Part shown: positions 2,293-9,935 of the stretch, in pieces | How positions within the stretch are numbered: the first letter of the stretch is position 1 | Layout: every line of letters begins with the position of its first letter | Origin: Arthrobacter sp. ISL-5 | GTDB lineage: Bacteria > Actinomycetota > Actinomycetes > Actinomycetales > Micrococcaceae | DNA: 64,000 bases | Reading direction: 5' to 3' | Assembly: GCF_018613835.1 (NCBI RefSeq) | Contig: NZ_JAGGPM010000043.1 | Coordinates: 1-64,000, forward strand | Translations under genes and position numbers: made by a program | The notes under the pieces: generated by a model | What the model was told of the DNA's origin: nothing | Databases searched by the model: none | Seen by the model: the letters and a program-made list of their open reading frames with translations, nothing else

Positions 2293-3243
2293 TTACGCTC
2301 GCTCTCCGCTGATATTTTCCAGGAATCTGGCGGATGAATACTTCATCGCTCTCTCATTCCAGCCATAGACCAGCTTGTAGATTGGTTCCGGTAGAGGCGG
2401 GGCGCTGGACCTGATCTGGTACTGTGCGTCCTGGTTCGTACGCAACCGTGTTTCTGTGACCGCGCGGGACTGAGCTTGCTCGTCCAAGGCGTCCCCCAGG
2501 ACCTGCCGCTGTCTCGCTGCTGTAGCGTTGCCGCGTATTACTTCGTTCAGGGCGATGACGCCGGGAATAATCGGTAATGCGATGCCAGCCAGAAAGTCCC
2601 CCAAGGACATACCTTTGAGCACCGCTATGAGCAGGATTGCCGAAAGAGAAATGGCCCCCAGCATGGCTGTGACGATGTAGTAGACGGTATGAATCCTCTG
2701 ACTGTAAACGCACGCTATGCGTTGGGCCAGGAGAACCGCCATCGGGCCGGGCAGTCCGGGTCTGATCTCATACCAGCCCTGTAGTTTGTGCCTTTTTATT
2801 GCTTTCTCGAACCCGCCAAGGCGGTCTGAGATATGTTCCGGGGCAACCTTCTGGCCCAACGCCTGATTCCAGGGCAACCCAAAGACAATACATTCAAACT
2901 GTTCCAGGATCCTGGCAGCCCGAACGATCAACAAGGACTCCCACGGGGAAAGTAGCAATGACAGAACGACCCAGATGCCGGCCAAGGAGCCTACAAGATT
3001 GTCGGTCAAAACGTCAAGGGTGGTGACCACCGGTCCTAAAAGGGTAATAGTAAGGGCCCCGCCGATTCGGACTCTCCTGATCCACTTCGCAATTCCAAAG
3101 ATGCGACGCTGGGCAAGCAGTAGTTCTAGGGCTCCACGTTCATCTTGGCGCTCCAGCAACTCGTCGCTGGCAGCCACGAGCCGTGGCGAGGCACTGTTGA
3201 TCACATGCATCATCCAACCACACGTTGCCCGGGTATCTCCCAT
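2293..3243 (-). CDS. S-4TM-family putative pore-forming CBASS effector
   Basis: The conserved opening (ASDELLERQDERGALELLLA, then QRRIFGIAKW) and four hydrophobic segments match the S-4TM family. These are predicted membrane effectors encoded beside SMODS/CD-NTase genes. Segments appear as two helices early (GALTITLLGPVV, VGSLAGIWVVLSLLL) and two later (YYIVTAMLGAISLSAILLI, FLAGIALPIIPGVI), with cytoplasmic linkers between them and a charged C-terminal tail. In such systems the cyclic nucleotide is thought to trigger membrane disruption and abortive infection. The frame stays open to 3435, but the extra N-terminal sequence is arginine-rich and unlike the family. ATG 3243 (316 aa) or the double ATG near 3211 is more likely. 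Confidence 0.7.
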   Translation of the reverse strand: MGDTRATCGWMMHVINSASPRLVAASDELLERQDERGALELLLAQRRIFGIAKWIRRVRIGGALTITLLGPVVTTLDVLTDNLVGSLAGIWVVLSLLLSPWESLLIVRAARILEQFECIVFGLPWNQALGQKVAPEHISDRLGGFEKAIKRHKLQGWYEIRPGLPGPMAVLLAQRIACVYSQRIHTVYYIVTAMLGAISLSAILLIAVLKGMSLGDFLAGIALPIIPGVIALNEVIRGNATAARQRQVLGDALDEQAQSRAVTETRLRTNQDAQYQIRSSAPPLPEPIYKLVYGWNERAMKYSSARFLENISGERA

Positions 3244-3435
3244 CGCCCCTCGCCGGTCTGGGGCGGCGCCATGCTTCGTTTGCCTATGCCGAACAGGGTG
3301 GGTCATGCCTAGGCCCAATTTGCCTCGGCGTAGACGTCTATGGGTGGAAAGTGGACCATTTCGCTGTCCATTGATGATGTCGACAGACGTATCCACTCGC
3401 ATGCCGGGCGTAAGAAGACGGTTTAAGGTCGTCAT

Positions 3436-4723: not shown

Positions 4724-5041
4724 CTACGCGGTGGTGTCGCCTGCACGTTTGATGGCGCGGTAGACGGTTGAGCGCACGACCGCGAACAGTTCTGCAAGTT
4801 TGACTGTCGTGTGCGTCCCCGCCGGGTGAACGGAGACCAGGTGCGCCTCCTGTGTTTTGGAGAGCTTGGGCTGCTTCCCCCGGAGGCGGCCCTTCGCCTT
4901 GGCGACGGCCATGCCCTCCCGGGTTCGTGCCCGGATCAGGTCCGCTTCGAATTCGGCGACCATGGCCAGGACGTTAAAGAGGAGCCGGCCACGGAGCACG
5001 AGAAACGCCAGGCCTACCCCGACGCCGTTGACCAGGCTCAC
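4724..5041 (-). pseudogene. Serine recombinase (resolvase), C-terminal fragment
   Basis: The sequence GRLLFNVLAMVAEFEADLIR followed by ARTREGMAVAKAKGRLRGKQ is the end of the catalytic domain and E-helix of Tn3-type resolvases. A Hin-type HTH follows (TVKLAELFAVVRSTVYRAIK). The N-terminal part with the nucleophilic serine and the R..DR motif is absent. Residues before GRLLF are degenerate, and a stop lies just upstream in the frame. It is a mobile-element remnant. Confidence 0.75.
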
Positions 5042-5224
5042 GCCGACTTAGCCGCGCTCCAGCCGAGCACCTGACGTTGGCCAAGACCGGCCCGGGTCAT
5101 CGCTGGTCAGCCATATCCGCCTGATTTTTCCCAAGTACTACGGCGATCCCGAGCAAGGTGGCGCAATCAGCAGCTGAGCCGGAACCTTGCCTGTACCACC
5201 ATCGCCCGCCGTGGGCCAGGTCGT
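5042..5224. other. Spacer between the resolvase remnant and the peptidase cluster
   Basis: No gene seen. This is the downstream end of the minus-strand transporter cluster; no clear T-run terminator was identified. Confidence 0.3.
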
Positions 5225-5779
5225 TCAGCGTTTCCGCTCGTTCACCGGTGAGGATCCCTGGTTTCTTGGATGCCTGGTGGCCTTCAGGACGAGCTGACCG
5301 ACTCCTATCAAGACCATTCTCCCGTCGGCGAAAAACGGCAGTAGATTGACGGCATGTCCGAGCGCCACAGGAATCGCTATCCAGGCCGGGACGCCGGCAG
5401 GGATGGTCAGTGTGCAGCACAGAACCCCGGCTAACGGGCCCGAGGTTGCCGTGAGGATGTTGTGTATTCCCTGCATGCGGGGTGCGGCTATCCATACACC
5501 GGTCAAGGAATTTTTCGTTGTCCCGGCGCAGGAATCCTGGAGGAGCCATCGAAGGACTGTCAGATGAGCGGTCTCATGGAGGATGAGGGAGCTCAAGCAT
5601 ACTGCGAACCCGATCAGTGCTGCCGTGAGGGGGTCATTGAGCGTTCCTGTGGCGAGAGCGGCTATGGTTCCCGCCGCGAGGAAGACGGATGCCATTGTCA
5701 TGGCGGGCAGGAGGGCTGCGCGGAGCACAGAGAGGAGCGCACCGCTGCTTCCCGAACCATGGCGAAGGTTCCCTGGCAT
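5225..5779 (-). CDS. Membrane-embedded zinc metallopeptidase (M50/site-2-protease-like)
   Basis: This 184-residue, mostly hydrophobic protein has an HETAH zinc motif at residues 68-72 inside a predicted helix (LSSLILHETAHLTVL). A second motif, NLLPFFADG, lies at 145-153. It corresponds to the N-x2-P-x3-DG-like third-ligand region of M50 intramembrane proteases. Four to five membrane segments are visible. It is the last gene of a minus-strand cluster with a small peptide and an ABC transporter, 79 bp after the permease. By analogy with clusters such as Bacillus yydFGHIJ, where an M50 protein matures a secreted peptide, it may cleave the 85-residue protein at 8457-8714. That role is inferred from context. 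Confidence 0.6.
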   Translation of the reverse strand: MPGNLRHGSGSSGALLSVLRAALLPAMTMASVFLAAGTIAALATGTLNDPLTAALIGFAVCLSSLILHETAHLTVLRWLLQDSCAGTTKNSLTGVWIAAPRMQGIHNILTATSGPLAGVLCCTLTIPAGVPAWIAIPVALGHAVNLLPFFADGRMVLIGVGQLVLKATRHPRNQGSSPVNERKR

Positions 5780-5858
5780 CCGTCCACGCCGCCGGATCTG
5801 GATACTTGTGGATGAAAAGGTTCCGGGTCGGTGGGCAGATGTGGGTGTCCTGAGCTGA

Positions 5859-7367
5859 TCACTGACCCGCCATTTCCGAGCGGTGCAGTCCCATCCACCG
5901 TCCTGTCAGGAAGTACGCCGCGACGACTGCGATCATCATCATTAGCTGTACCAGGACAATTGCGAACAGACTGCCGGATGCTGCAAGCGTTGACTGTAGG
6001 CCGAAGGTCAGGCCGATCAGGCCAATCACGGCGACTGCTTCGGACACGGCCCCGCCAATTGACTGGTCCCGGGACACCGGCAGCAAAAGCCCCAGGATGC
6101 AGCTGGCGCACATTTCCACGAAAAGCATCGGCAATGCCATCATTAGATCCACGGGCTGGGCGTCCGTGAATAGGATCAGGGCTGTCCCGTAGAAACCCAT
6201 CATGGCCGCCCAAACTACGAATACTGCCATGAATTTCGGCATGACCCATGATGTCGGTTGTCCTGCGACCCGGTATATCCAGTGGTGACGGCGGGTTGGG
6301 CCGTAACATCCGATGCCTAGGGCACTGGCGACGCCCAGCGAGATGTAGAACAGGCCCAGGTCATCAGAGCCGGCAATCGCAGCAGAAATGACAGCTGCCA
6401 CGCACAGTCCGTTGACGAACAACAGCAGCACGGCGTTCGAGGGGAAGCATAGCCACTGTCGAAGCTCGAGGCGGAAGAAGGATTCGTCGTTGGCCTTCCG
6501 GCGTTTCCGCCTCCATCGGAGTATTGGATGCCAGGCTGTGAATTCCGGCCGGGGCACCCATTCCAGCAATTGCAGGACGCCCAGCATGACCAATGGAGCG
6601 GCTGCGACCAGCGTCACGGTCCACCATGCCGGGGCTGGGCCGCCGAGTAGCCACGCGAATACCTCTCCCAGCGGCAGCAGAACGCCTCCGCTTTCCCTGC
6701 CGTTCATAGGCAGTGTGCCGATGAACGCGAACAGGAGAAGGCCCGCGGTCAGCAGTCCGCTGATTCCCTGAACGATGACTCCGTTCCGACCCAGCGACCT
6801 TCCTATGATCACCTGCCCCAGTTCGATAAGAACCTGGGTCGTAAGACATCCGAAGAGGGCTGCGAATAAGGCATAGCCAAGTCCGGCCACTGCGACGCGT
6901 ACGCTCCCAGTGAAGACGAACTGAAGGGCGAGGGGGCCTGCGACGAGAAGCCCGCCGAAGTAACCCACAGAGACGGTGAGCCACCGCACGGCCGCCCGGA
7001 TATGGGCCTGTCGGACGGGGAGTACCGAGAGCATCTCGGTGAGAAGCGTCCGGCTCGGGGCATACAGTACTGCCATCAGCGTGGCCAGTGCAGGCATTGT
7101 AAACACCACACCGGCTACGGGGGCAGCGATCTGCCATCCCATATCCGCGTCCAGCCCCAGTTGATGACCCAGCTCGACGCTGGACCACGCAGTCCAGGCC
7201 ACCATCGCGGTGAGGATCCCGGACACAAATGCTCTTGCCCTGTTCTTCGACCCCAGCGACCGGGCGAGATCGTTGAACCAGATACGCCAGGTGATGCCAT
7301 GGACTGCAGCCATCACGGTCAGTGCCGGCGGAGGAGGCGAAGGCCGGCGGAACCCGGTGATGCTCAT
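5859..7367 (-). CDS. ABC transporter permease, large (about 12 TM)
   Basis: This 502-residue protein has roughly a dozen hydrophobic segments, arranged as two halves joined by a basic linker (RWRRKRRKANDESFFRLELR). That layout is seen in actinobacterial exporter permeases that work with a separate ATPase. Its ATG overlaps the stop of the 86-residue membrane protein by four bases (ATGA), so the two are translationally coupled. It pairs with the ATPase at 7654-8427. The substrate is not evident from sequence; a secreted peptide is suggested by the neighbouring small gene and metallopeptidase. No extracellular MacB-type domain is present. Confidence 0.7.
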   Translation of the reverse strand: MSITGFRRPSPPPPALTVMAAVHGITWRIWFNDLARSLGSKNRARAFVSGILTAMVAWTAWSSVELGHQLGLDADMGWQIAAPVAGVVFTMPALATLMAVLYAPSRTLLTEMLSVLPVRQAHIRAAVRWLTVSVGYFGGLLVAGPLALQFVFTGSVRVAVAGLGYALFAALFGCLTTQVLIELGQVIIGRSLGRNGVIVQGISGLLTAGLLLFAFIGTLPMNGRESGGVLLPLGEVFAWLLGGPAPAWWTVTLVAAAPLVMLGVLQLLEWVPRPEFTAWHPILRWRRKRRKANDESFFRLELRQWLCFPSNAVLLLFVNGLCVAAVISAAIAGSDDLGLFYISLGVASALGIGCYGPTRRHHWIYRVAGQPTSWVMPKFMAVFVVWAAMMGFYGTALILFTDAQPVDLMMALPMLFVEMCASCILGLLLPVSRDQSIGGAVSEAVAVIGLIGLTFGLQSTLAASGSLFAIVLVQLMMMIAVVAAYFLTGRWMGLHRSEMAGQ

Positions 7368-7624
7368 TGCTTCCGGCCGGCGCGCTTGGACCCCTTGCCG
7401 GCCAGCCAGATCAGCGTACCGGCCACCAAGGCGAGGCCAATCGGGCCCAACGGGTTGAAAAACATGCTTGTTTCCGGGGCTCCGACCTCATTGGTGGTTG
7501 ATTCCACCACGACGAACGCCGGAATCGACAGGCTGCCGTTGGTGAGAAAGGTGACGATGAATATGACGAGCAACGTCAGCAGCGCCACCACGATTCCGAT
7601 ACCGAGGGACTTAGCGAAGTTCAC
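7364..7624 (-). CDS. Small two-TM membrane protein of the ABC/peptidase cluster
   Basis: This 86-residue protein has one helix at the N-terminus (IGIVVALLTLLVIFIVTFL) and another near residues 60-75 (PLGPIGLALVAGTLIWLAG), with a short acidic loop between and a basic tail (KGSKRAGRKQ). It lies between the ATPase (29 bp away) and the permease (ATGA overlap). It could be a transporter subunit, an immunity protein or a second peptide; sequence does not decide. No homologous family is recognised. Confidence 0.6.
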   Translation of the reverse strand: MNFAKSLGIGIVVALLTLLVIFIVTFLTNGSLSIPAFVVVESTTNEVGAPETSMFFNPLGPIGLALVAGTLIWLAGKGSKRAGRKQ

Positions 7625-7653
7625 ATTCTCTCCCGTGTGTGAAGTGACTCTGG

Positions 7654-8427
7654 TTACGGTGACCGCAGCAGTCGCTGCAGTTCCTTTTCCTTGCCGATCA
7701 TCGTGGCGTGCAACCCGGTGGCGTGGACAAACAATTCCTCCAGGGATCGGGCGCCGTTCTCTAACATCAGATCCCGTGGCGTTCCGGAGGCGACCATTGT
7801 TCCTTCAGCGAGGATGACAACTGAATCGCAGAATCGTTCAGCCGCCACGAGGTCATGGGTGGCCAGGAGAATGGCGCCGCCTTCTTGTGTGAATGTTTTC
7901 AGCAGCGCATTCATCAGCAGGCCGGCTTCCGGGTCAAGACCGCGCATAGGTTCATCCAGGATGAGCAGTTCCGGCCGATGGGCCAGGGCCAGAACCAGCT
8001 GAAGTTTGCGCTTCATGCCGTGGGAATAGTCCCCGACGTATTTATCCAGATGCGAGGACAAGCCGAGTAGCTCGGTGAGACCGGAAGCGGTTTCGTTGGA
8101 GAACAGCGGCCTCAGGCGGCGGTAGAAGGAAATGGTCTCGGAGGCCGTGAGGGACTCCGGCATCGGCAGATCGTCCGGGAAGAAACCAAAATGGTCCTTC
8201 GCCTCCACTGATTCGTGCGGGGCGCCGCCGATGAGGATGCTGCCGAAAGACAGTTTGATGAACCCGGTGATGCAATGCAGGGTGGTGGACTTGCCCGACC
8301 CGTTGGGTCCCAGAAGTCCCGTAATCGCACCCTGAGGGACAGCGAAGGAGAGATCCTGGACTCCGTGCCGGGTTCCGTAGGTTTTGGTCAAACCCGTCAC
8401 TTGCAACGGGTCAGGCAAGTTCGCCAT
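7654..8427 (-). CDS. ABC transporter ATP-binding protein
   Basis: This 257-residue ATPase has Walker A GLLGPNGSGKSTTLH, a signature loop reading YSHGMKRKL in place of LSGGQ, and Walker B LLILDEPMRGLDPEA with the downstream switch histidine (LLATHDL). This is the CcmA/NatA-like class used by many peptide and drug exporters. It energises the permease encoded just downstream on the same strand. The peptide gene lies 29 bp upstream. The full-length motifs indicate an active enzyme. Confidence 0.9.
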   Translation of the reverse strand: MANLPDPLQVTGLTKTYGTRHGVQDLSFAVPQGAITGLLGPNGSGKSTTLHCITGFIKLSFGSILIGGAPHESVEAKDHFGFFPDDLPMPESLTASETISFYRRLRPLFSNETASGLTELLGLSSHLDKYVGDYSHGMKRKLQLVLALAHRPELLILDEPMRGLDPEAGLLMNALLKTFTQEGGAILLATHDLVAAERFCDSVVILAEGTMVASGTPRDLMLENGARSLEELFVHATGLHATMIGKEKELQRLLRSP

Positions 8428-8456
8428 TGTTTTAATCCTCTCCTAGGGCCATCGGC

Positions 8457-8714
8457 CTAGTAGCAGCCGAGTTTGATGCCGATCTTGACTCCCCAAGGAC
8501 CCCTAACGGCACTAATGTCGCCGGTGAAGCCGTCGTAGCCTGATTTGCGGCAGTATACCCATGCGGCTGCAGCGGCGACCACCAGAATGCCGATTAGGAC
8601 CAGCCAGACCCAGCGAAATTCGCTGGACTTCTCCAGGGCCGAATCCACGGCTCGGGCGATGGCGTTCTGGGCGGATATGTGCGCCCCAATTGCATAATCT
8701 GTGAGTGCAAGCAT
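8457..8714 (-). CDS. Small membrane-anchored precursor-like peptide
   Basis: The first gene of the cluster encodes 85 residues. A soluble, weakly amphipathic N-terminus is followed by a single hydrophobic helix at about residues 36-54 (VWLVLIGILVVAAAAAWVY). The C-terminus has 31 polar/aromatic residues bracketed by two cysteines (C55 and C84; CRKSGYDGFTGDI...KLGCY). The tail is glycine- and aromatic-rich, as in secreted bacteriocin-type peptides, and the helix would suit intramembrane cleavage by the M50 protein at 5225-5779. No known bacteriocin family is recognised. It may instead be a structural membrane protein of the transporter. The peptide interpretation is inference from layout. Confidence 0.55.
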   Translation of the reverse strand: MLALTDYAIGAHISAQNAIARAVDSALEKSSEFRWVWLVLIGILVVAAAAAWVYCRKSGYDGFTGDISAVRGPWGVKIGIKLGCY

Positions 8715-8770
8715 TCACTTATTCCTTTCGATTTGTTGATGAATTGCCAAATGGCATTGCGGATTTCGCC

Positions 8771-9143
8771 CAGAAACAAACGCGGTTCAATTCCGCCCGT
8801 TAGGGCGCAGGAAAAGAAAGACCGTCAAGTCGATGGGTTGATCCAGTTAATTTGTTAATCAGCCAGTGCCGTCTTCGAATGCATGCTGGGCAGTCGAACG
8901 AAATCGTCTGATAAGAGGTCCGGAGGCAGCATGCGGGCACTGAGCCACTTGCCATCGATGCTTGAGTTATACGACAGGCGCGATGGAACAATGTGGCCAA
9001 TCTGCGGAGTACTCAGCGGGCGGCTGCTTGACGGGTTTCCCCTCAGAAACAAACGCTTCTCGAATCCCCCAAGAAAAGGGTAGAAAAGATACACCTGCAA
9101 AGTCAACGGGTTAATCCAGTTAATTTATTAATCGCCAAGTGCC
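8771..9143. repeat. Pair of diverged ~100-bp direct repeats upstream of the peptide cluster
   Basis: Copy 1 (8771-8870) and copy 2 (9044-9143) share CAGAAACAAACGC at one end and GTTAATCCAGTTAATTT-like sequence (GTTGATCC in copy 1) followed by TTAATC and AGTGCC at the other. The middle is more divergent (AGAAAAG...AGTC). They lie about 270 bp apart in the region that should hold the promoter of the minus-strand cluster. They could be regulatory modules or copies of a short element. No protein-coding frame spans them. Confidence 0.65.
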
Positions 9144-9235
9144 ACGTTCCCAGAGGCGCGTACTCGGGCCCGCCGCGTCCCAATCGATGAACACCCACCG
9201 TTCGCCCCCTTGCATATGCAGCGCAGTCCTTTGGA

Positions 9236-9394
9236 GTGCTCTTTGAAGGCCAACCGGTTCCAGAGGCAGCTGCGAGGCTGCGCGCTGTTATTGACGGTTA
9301 TGGGGCTGACGAGGTCCTACGGGAAGCGGCGAGCACTCGCACGCTGCGGCTGACTATGTCCTACGTAATCAAGACGCCTGGAAACAGGTCCTGA
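9236..9394 (+). pseudogene. Possible C-terminal remnant of an unknown protein
   Basis: A 52-codon plus-strand frame (VPEAAARLRAVIDGYGADEV, then LREAASTRTLRL) has balanced, coding-like composition and ends at TGA 9392. It has no convincing start or ribosome site and no recognised family. It may be the tail of a truncated gene. Confidence is low. Confidence 0.25.
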
Positions 9395-9497
9395 CCTAGA
9401 TTGCTGCTGCCGTGCAGGGACCCGATGAAGGATCCTTTACCGGACAGTCTCTTGACCCTTAGGCCTAGCAACACAGGCCAATTGGGCCGATCGGCCG

Positions 9498-9935
9498 TCA
9501 GCTCTTCTTCAGTTCCTCGGCGAGCATCACGAGGATGCCGCTGGGACCGCGGACGTACGTGAGCTTGTAGATGTCCTGATAGGTCGCTACGCCGCGAAGC
9601 GGATGGCAGCCGTGCCTCGCGGCTGTCTCGAGGGCTTCGTCGATGTCGTCGACCGAGAAGGCGACGCGGTGCATGCCGATCTCGTTGGGAAGCGTGGGCT
9701 TGGTCTCGATCGCTTCGGGGTGGATGTACTCGAAGAGCTCGAGGCGGCCGTGGCCGTCCGGCGTCTGGAGCAGCGCGATCCTGGCGTGGTTGCCGTCGAG
9801 GCCGACGGCGGTGTCGGTCCACTCGCCGCTGACCGTGTCGCGGCCGAGGACCGTGAGGCCGAGGTCGGTGAAGAACGCGATCGCGGCTTCGAGATCGCGG
9901 ACGGCGATGCCGACGTTGTCGAGTCTGATGGCCAT
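9498..9935 (-). CDS. VOC-superfamily (glyoxalase/bleomycin-resistance-like) protein
   Basis: This 145-residue protein carries the paired VOC beta-alpha-beta units: IRLDNVGIAVRDLEAAIAFF at the start and MHRVAFSVDDIDEALETA in the second half. The candidate metal ligands are a glutamate near LELFEYI and a histidine in IGMHRVAF. This is the typical single-chain length of lactoylglutathione-lyase-like proteins that dimerise to form the active site. The third base is almost always G or C, more so than in the neighbours, suggesting separate origin. The start is taken at MAIRLDNV (9935) because conserved sequence begins there. The substrate is unknown. Confidence 0.75.
   Translation of the reverse strand: MAIRLDNVGIAVRDLEAAIAFFTDLGLTVLGRDTVSGEWTDTAVGLDGNHARIALLQTPDGHGRLELFEYIHPEAIETKPTLPNEIGMHRVAFSVDDIDEALETAARHGCHPLRGVATYQDIYKLTYVRGPSGILVMLAEELKKS

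Follow-up and report, generated by a model that had tools for sequence, protein, structure and literature searches.

A five-gene cassette of Arthrobacter with one candidate for each core gene of transmembrane-helix bacteriocin clusters

A five-gene cassette was analyzed on contig NZ_JAGGPM010000043.1 of Arthrobacter sp. ISL-5 (genome size 5.35 Mb), within a stretch of 64,000 nucleotides that is referred to throughout as the window. The cassette very probably makes, trims and exports a small pore-forming antibacterial peptide of the TMcin class, as judged by analogy with the characterized member of that class. TMcins are transmembrane-helix bacteriocins published in 2025 (Dickey et al., PMC12328743, cited here and below from its available text), and their biosynthesis was described in a 2026 preprint (Nur et al., PMC13252029). 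The core operon consists of tmcA (precursor), tmcB (ATPase), tmcC (12-helix permease), tmcP (HExxH site-2-type protease, DUF3267) and tmcE (two-helix escort) (PMC13252029). The window contains one candidate for each of these genes and none extra. The assignment rests on the sum of peptide, protein and gene-content tests, because no single test is sufficient.

A first-pass annotation of the window had described a peptide production and secretion cassette with an ATP-binding cassette (ABC) exporter and a site-2-type metalloprotease. This description looks right, and the five genes, their coordinates and their individual descriptions were confirmed by open reading frames (ORFs), hydropathy and motifs. 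The system had also been proposed as new; its parts match those of TMcin clusters (PMC13252029; PMC12328743, available text), and it is probably not new.

Gene layout, conservation and movement of the cassette

The five ORFs occupy positions 8714 to 5225 of the window on the minus strand, in the order peptide, ATPase, small membrane protein, permease and protease. The genes for the small membrane protein (7624-7364) and the permease (7367-5859) overlap by 4 bases. Strong membrane peaks in hydropathy, an approximate method of counting, numbered 1 in the peptide, 0 in the ATPase, 2 in the small protein, 11 in the permease and 3 in the protease. The features of the cassette are as follows.

8457-8714 (stop codon included), minus strand: tmcA-like gene for a candidate TMcin precursor of 85 residues; ORF, 3 orthologues and TMcin signature.
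8616-8714, minus strand: putative leader, precursor residues 1-33; from alignment to TMcin-G1905.
8460-8615, minus strand: putative mature peptide, residues 34-85, with membrane helix and Cys55-Cys84 hairpin tail; from alignment to TMcin-G1905.
7654-8427, minus strand: tmcB-like ABC ATPase, 257 residues; Pfam ABC_tran and identity to ATPases of TMcin loci.
7364-7624, minus strand: tmcE-like two-helix membrane protein (escort), 86 residues; two hydropathy peaks and a 30-residue loop.
5859-7367, minus strand: tmcC-like permease, 502 residues, 11 hydropathy peaks; hydropathy and hhalign.
5225-5779, minus strand: tmcP-like membrane metalloprotease, 184 residues, with HETAH and NLLPFFADG; motifs and hhalign.

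All five genes were found in unchanged order in three other Arthrobacter genomes, G151, G158 and G187 (loci L011, L012 and L013, respectively). The four cassettes, including that of the window, each contain the full set, and the peptide and transporter were never found without the protease. In comparisons with the three relatives, the peptide of the window was 80-81% identical in amino acid sequence, the ATPase 75%, the permease 67-68%, the small protein 62-64% and the protease 49-51%. The ratio of nonsynonymous to synonymous divergence (dN/dS) between the window and its relatives ran from 0.07-0.10 in the peptide, the lowest value, to 0.23-0.27 in the protease, the highest, at dS values of 1.2-1.9 that are near saturation. 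In the closer pair L011/L013 the peptide had a dN of 0.005 at a dS of 0.48, corresponding to one amino-acid change. The peptide is therefore a protein-coding gene under strong constraint, and purifying selection is strong on the whole cassette and on the peptide most of all.

Within the peptide, 7 of the 34 positions ahead of the helix were variable, as were 3 of the 20 helix positions and 7 of the 31 tail positions. The first-pass annotation had looked to a tail more variable or more conserved than the remainder of the protein, and neither was clearly observed. This result is without bearing on a TMcin assignment because leader, helix and tail all have roles in TMcins.

A peptide profile matched 4 of 206 genomes of the genus, that of the window included. 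For the permease, a sample of 395 genomes from the family gave 2 matches (its own genome and G187; G151 and G158 carry the gene and were presumably missing from the sample), and a sample of 394 from the class gave 1, its own. The protease profile matched 2 of 246 class genomes, namely its own genome and one frame without the protease motif. When 84,980 species genomes were scanned with the one peptide as a pattern, a search that can reach only close relatives, a single match was obtained (AFG20). A peptide match in G056 was set aside as chance, since it covered 29 residues within a 427-residue frame and was absent from the profile search, and the protease-profile match in G755 was rejected as a frame without HExxH. 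Plasmid searches with the peptide and permease of the window gave no match, and neither did a search of viral contigs with the TMcin-G1905 peptide.

The borders of the cassette were located by DNA comparison of the loci and their flanks (blastn, E 1e-5). L011 and L013 aligned over 3,569 columns at 81%; the alignment began ∼150 bases upstream of the peptide gene and stopped ∼60 bases short of the end of the protease gene, with no other similarity in the 16-18 kb compared. L011 and L012 aligned over 4,174 columns at 98%, starting ∼650 bases upstream of the peptide gene and running slightly beyond the protease gene, and the 16 kb compared contained no other similarity. Within its first 20 kb, the window matched L011 and L013 only in the cassette and the 5′ leader region before it, over 2.9-3.0 kb at 69-70%; here the protease gene had diverged too far for alignment at the DNA level. 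The shared block is thus about 3.6-4.2 kb. Similarity ends at the borders of the cassette and the flanks are unrelated. The five genes therefore travel together, with hardly anything beside them conserved, and the cassette appears to behave as a self-contained mobile unit. No DsbA-family (tmcD) gene and no regulator gene lies in the shared block.

A resolvase remnant (Pfam Resolvase, E 9e-9) was located just downstream of the cassette at window positions 4724-5041 on the minus strand. In L011 a short frame upstream of the peptide gene (6179-6448) is resolvase-like by eye only. These traces could possibly reflect how the cassette moves.

Agreement of the precursor and its partner proteins with TMcins

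TMcins are known from Bacillota and Actinomycetota in three gene arrangements, and the type member, TMcin-G1905, was obtained from Staphylococcus aureus plasmid pCT545 (PMC12328743, available text). Yardstick loci from Bacillota were collected by tblastn with the mature TMcin-G1905 peptide, which returned 6 plasmid records. Four loci were examined, on plasmids of Peribacillus muralis, Roseburia sp. 831b, Paraclostridium bifermentans and Staphylococcus epidermidis. To our knowledge no activity has been reported for these four loci.

The 85-residue peptide has a single hydropathy peak at residues 35-53, followed by a tail at residues 55-85. The tail is bracketed by Cys55 and Cys84, as the first-pass annotation had noted, and both cysteines are invariant in all four orthologues and align with cysteines of five Bacillota TMcins. 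An alignment of three Arthrobacter peptides (L012 was omitted) with the five Bacillota TMcin peptides gave the invariant columns W, C, F, G and C, at an overall identity of 17-30% between the window peptide and the Bacillota sequences. Of the two conserved tryptophans that flank the helix in TMcins, the first corresponds to the invariant W35; the second position is occupied by Tyr54, with Trp52 two residues before. W35 aligns with W2 of mature TMcin-G1905, which places R34 at the position of A1. From this alignment we infer cleavage near residue 33/34, which would leave a product of 52 residues with a computed mass of about 5655 Da with one disulfide. An AlphaFold2 (AF2) model of low confidence predicted two helices, one of them at residues 31-57, and a two-stranded hairpin (63-72/75-84). 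The predicted layout is that published for TMcin (PMC12328743, available text).

The motif C-x(5-9)-F[TS]G-x(10-24)-C near the end of the protein was present in 8 of 3,636 ORFs, which were the four Bacillota TMcin and four Arthrobacter peptides, and in 3 of 200,000 shuffles of the 85-mer. With a Trp and a hydrophobic stretch added, a stricter pattern selected 7 of the ORFs (Roseburia was missed) and none of the shuffles. Both patterns were designed after these sequences had been seen. When 3,039 ORFs were ranked by a profile trained on Bacillota TMcins alone, the four Arthrobacter peptides came directly behind the training ORFs.

The ATPase matched Pfam ABC_tran (E 8.9e-25) and was 41%, 37% and 28% identical to the ATPases of the Paraclostridium, Peribacillus and S. 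epidermidis TMcin loci, compared with 26% to a further ATPase encoded in the same genome. The remaining proteins were compared by hhalign with column shuffles, which drop membrane-helix character and are a lenient control. Scores as high as the real one were obtained by 1 of 200 shuffles for the peptide against TmcA, 0 of 60 for the permease against two Bacillota TmcC and 0 of 200 for the protease against two Bacillota TmcP. The two-helix protein has its peaks at residues 9-27 and 58-76, separated by a loop of 30 residues; in a non-significant hhalign alignment its ETSMFF is matched to the GETAIAF/GVTSMSF loop of two Bacillota TmcE. Three Arthrobacter and three Bacillota proteases have only the catalytic residues H, E, H, N, P, D and G invariant. 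Searched against 3,636 ORFs, a TmcP profile recovered the protease of the window (E 0.019) after its training pair and the Paraclostridium protease.

Besides the leniency of the shuffles, a number of results weigh against the assignment. The hhalign probabilities were 14% for the peptide, 15% for the protease, 2% for the permease and 1% for the two-helix protein, and the similarity of the last to TmcE was not significant (20 of 200 shuffles as high). At the level of single sequences the peptide signal is weak, with a BLASTP E of 0.064 against TMcin-G1905 and E values of 0.26-0.34 for the Arthrobacter peptides under the Bacillota TMcin profile. The peptides fell outside the top 12 once 17 loci matched by the same profile had joined the background, and a search of 296 genomes with that profile did not report the genome of the window at E 0.05. 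Under a TmcC profile the Arthrobacter permeases reached only E 0.4-1.1, that of the window lying outside the top 12, and no Arthrobacter protein was in the top 12 of a TmcE profile. Three ordinary M50 peptidases of the relatives outranked the protease of the window under the TmcP profile, and the similarity does not set TmcP apart from other M50 peptidases. The protease passed no Pfam cut-off: DUF3267 (PF11667) was matched in 2 of 4 members with a best E of 0.023, under the Pfam cut-off and with the member of the window unmatched, and PF11667 had no match in the genome of the window. The yardstick loci are themselves uneven, with no sign of an ATPase gene in Roseburia or of an HExxH frame in Peribacillus. 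A structure search with two low-confidence AF2 models (mean pLDDT, the predicted local distance difference test score, of 60 and 48) returned no match at E 0.001.

In the libraries, the peptide, small protein, permease and protease had no match over cut-off in Pfam or NCBIfam; the permease and its orthologues had no Pfam match, and the permease no NCBIfam match. PADLOC was run with the peptide, permease and protease, leaving out the small protein. Matches of the peptide to GT87 (E 0.022), a PHROGs holin (E 0.033) and PADLOC SAVED_TM (E 0.0053) all lay over the membrane helix and were judged to be chance, as was a siderophore permease model matched by the small protein (E 0.011). A sequence search of the Protein Data Bank (PDB) gave nothing for the protease or the peptide. 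For the permease it gave 21 calcium-channel gamma subunits or fusions at E 0.012 or worse over ∼60 residues, also judged to be chance. The 17 matches of the TMcin profile in the phylum were likewise rejected as chance; none of the 17 loci (1.6-3.1 kb) had the peptide signature or an HExxH...NxxPxxxDG frame. A frame from an unrelated actinobacterium (L015, 1351-1971, minus strand), without HExxH, shares the 12-residue stretch GPQMRGAQNVAT with the L011 protease; this was taken as coincidence.

Alternative readings and a proposed route of production

Three other readings of the cassette were weighed. In the first, TMcin-like machinery would produce a signal that acts on the producer's kin, for instance as a pheromone or by setting off envelope stress. 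None of the other four products is as conserved as the peptide (49-75% against 80-81%), an unusual pattern if the peptide were a weapon under diversifying selection, and no separate immunity gene is common to the cassette flanks in the pairs compared. No regulator or sensor gene is common to those flanks either, and the parts of the cassette match a class that is antibacterial by experiment (PMC12328743, available text), leaving a signal improbable.

Strong conservation along the whole length of the peptide, together with its presence beside the transporter in all four cassettes, could also fit a structural or regulatory subunit of the ABC exporter that is neither cleaved nor secreted, the protease then acting elsewhere. 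The protease is likewise present in all four cassettes, and a tail bracketed by cysteines and bearing the FTG motif is the tail of a secreted pore peptide. We regard a subunit as a little less probable still than a kin signal.

The least probable reading resembles an epipeptide system: the 31-residue tail would be the active peptide and would be set free by cleavage within the membrane. In the epipeptide cluster epeXEPAB/yydFGHIJ the gene for a short peptide is accompanied by an M50-type membrane protease and an ABC transporter, and peptide, ATPase, permease and membrane metalloprotease co-occur in the window as in epeXEPAB. An M50 protease is stated for epipeptides in the available part of PMC10885120. 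The likeness drawn by the first-pass annotation is one of general layout. Radical-SAM matches numbered 9 in the genome and 0 on the contig, in line with its statement that no such gene accompanies the cassette. TMcins need none. No epipeptide family was among the NCBIfam matches of the peptide up to E 1, a search in which EpeX itself was not directly compared. The helix is as conserved as the tail, and the TMcin leader is cut N-terminal of the helix, which stays in the product. The earlier suggestion that the tail is released is thus probably wrong, since a protease acting as in TMcins would remove the N-terminal leader and leave helix and tail together.

The favored assignment, a pore-forming peptide of the TMcin class, leans on what has been established for TMcin-G1905. 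There the precursor is located in the membrane, TmcE and TmcP are both required for removal of the N-terminal leader, a disulfide that fastens the tail to the helix top is required for killing, and the helix-containing product is exported by TmcBC (PMC13252029). The product forms large pores that have been modelled as beta-barrels (PMC12328743, available text).

Gene content, synteny, selection, motifs and joint movement were established from the Arthrobacter sequences. Topology, cleavage side, disulfide, escort, export and killing in Arthrobacter are modelled on that system and would proceed as follows. The 85-residue precursor would insert into the producer membrane through its single helix, with the Cys-containing tail outside. 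The two-helix protein, in the role of TmcE, would escort the precursor and replace gate helices that are absent from the short protease. The site-2-type protease, in the role of TmcP, would then cut off ∼33 N-terminal residues. A Cys55-Cys84 disulfide would pin the tail to the top of the helix, presumably through the oxidative machinery of the host; the host genome encodes a VKOR homologue (E 4.4e-43) that could serve in disulfide formation. The ABC exporter, in the role of TmcBC, would extract the ∼52-residue helix-containing peptide from the membrane, and the peptide would insert into competing Gram-positive membranes to give a beta-barrel pore ringed by helices.

Surroundings of the cassette and comparison with known systems

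Upstream of the peptide gene two further features were annotated.

8761-8870, minus strand: conserved 5′ leader region before the peptide gene, common to the other loci; from alignment.
9034-9143, minus strand: second, diverged copy of the 5′ leader region without a peptide gene; from direct repeats.

The two copies are 273 bases apart and contain direct repeats of 44 nt (84%) and 37 nt (73%). In the relatives (L011 6677-6976 and its equivalents in L012 and L013) the region could form a hairpin of 8 bp (GCGGATTC...GAATCCGC), with z scores of −2.2 to −2.5 in two sequences from these loci and −0.1 in the copy of the window. Rfam had no match in positions 5000-9600, and a promoter scan detected no sigma-70-like promoter under its criteria. 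Defence genes of CBASS type lie next to the cassette, comprising a SMODS cyclase (1425-2291) and an S_4TM effector (2293-3435) on the minus strand; a second, related cyclase is at 608-1459 on the plus strand.

TMcins form stable, nanometre-scale pores, and the four Arthrobacter cassettes are a divergent case. From the sharp borders of the cassettes it can be seen which genes travel together, and this bears on self-immunity, a subject that the preprint did not investigate (PMC13252029). The cassettes also show how such clusters escape profile libraries, with peptide, escort, permease and protease all under Pfam and NCBIfam cut-offs.

More specifically, the four cassettes could represent a diverged actinobacterial branch of TMcins without accessory genes (no regulator, no DsbA) that is spreading among Arthrobacter as a bare five-gene cassette, a proposition to which we give even chances. 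If it is true, production, export and self-protection would all be contained within about 3.6 kb. With no immunity gene travelling along, protection of the producer would then have to come from the escort protein or the exporter. Arthrobacter is unnamed in the main text of PMC13252029 and in the available text of PMC12328743 (term search), and no paper in the library searched links TMcin with Arthrobacter. These sequences may already be within the tree of PMC12328743 (Fig. 3a).

Set against the epipeptide cluster epeXEPAB/yydFGHIJ, the window peptide differs in having a full membrane helix and a Cys-bracketed tail. All four Bacillota plasmid loci have the five invariant peptide residues of Arthrobacter, three have an ABC ATPase (none seen in Roseburia) and three an HExxH frame with NxxPxxxDG (not Peribacillus); they differ in gene order, in extra genes and in their hosts, which are Bacillota. 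The Paraclostridium locus has in addition a thioredoxin-domain gene and a PqqD-domain membrane protease. The latter, a PqqD-domain protein with a membrane HExxH part (L034, 7496-8389, on the P. bifermentans plasmid), was observed in a locus that also contains an annotated DUF3267 gene.

The cassette was also compared with TMcin-G1905 itself. Its precursor and that of Arthrobacter have in common a single helix, two conserved cysteines and the FTG motif, together with an N-terminal leader and a two-stranded C-terminal hairpin that are predicted for Arthrobacter. By alignment the putative mature peptide of Arthrobacter would be of the same length, 52 residues. The Arthrobacter helix is ∼3 residues shorter and the Cys-Cys loop 4 residues longer. 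Both clusters contain an ABC ATPase, a many-helix permease, a two-helix protein and an HExxH protease with distal N, P and D. They differ in that the shared block of the Arthrobacter cassettes is without a dsbA-like gene and without a regulator. The tmcD gene (DsbA family) is missing outside staphylococci (PMC13252029); tmcD and the regulator genes are mainly staphylococcal and do not define the family. The gene order in Arthrobacter is A-B-E-C-P, whereas that of S. epidermidis pHOB2, in our reading, is B-C-E-P-A.

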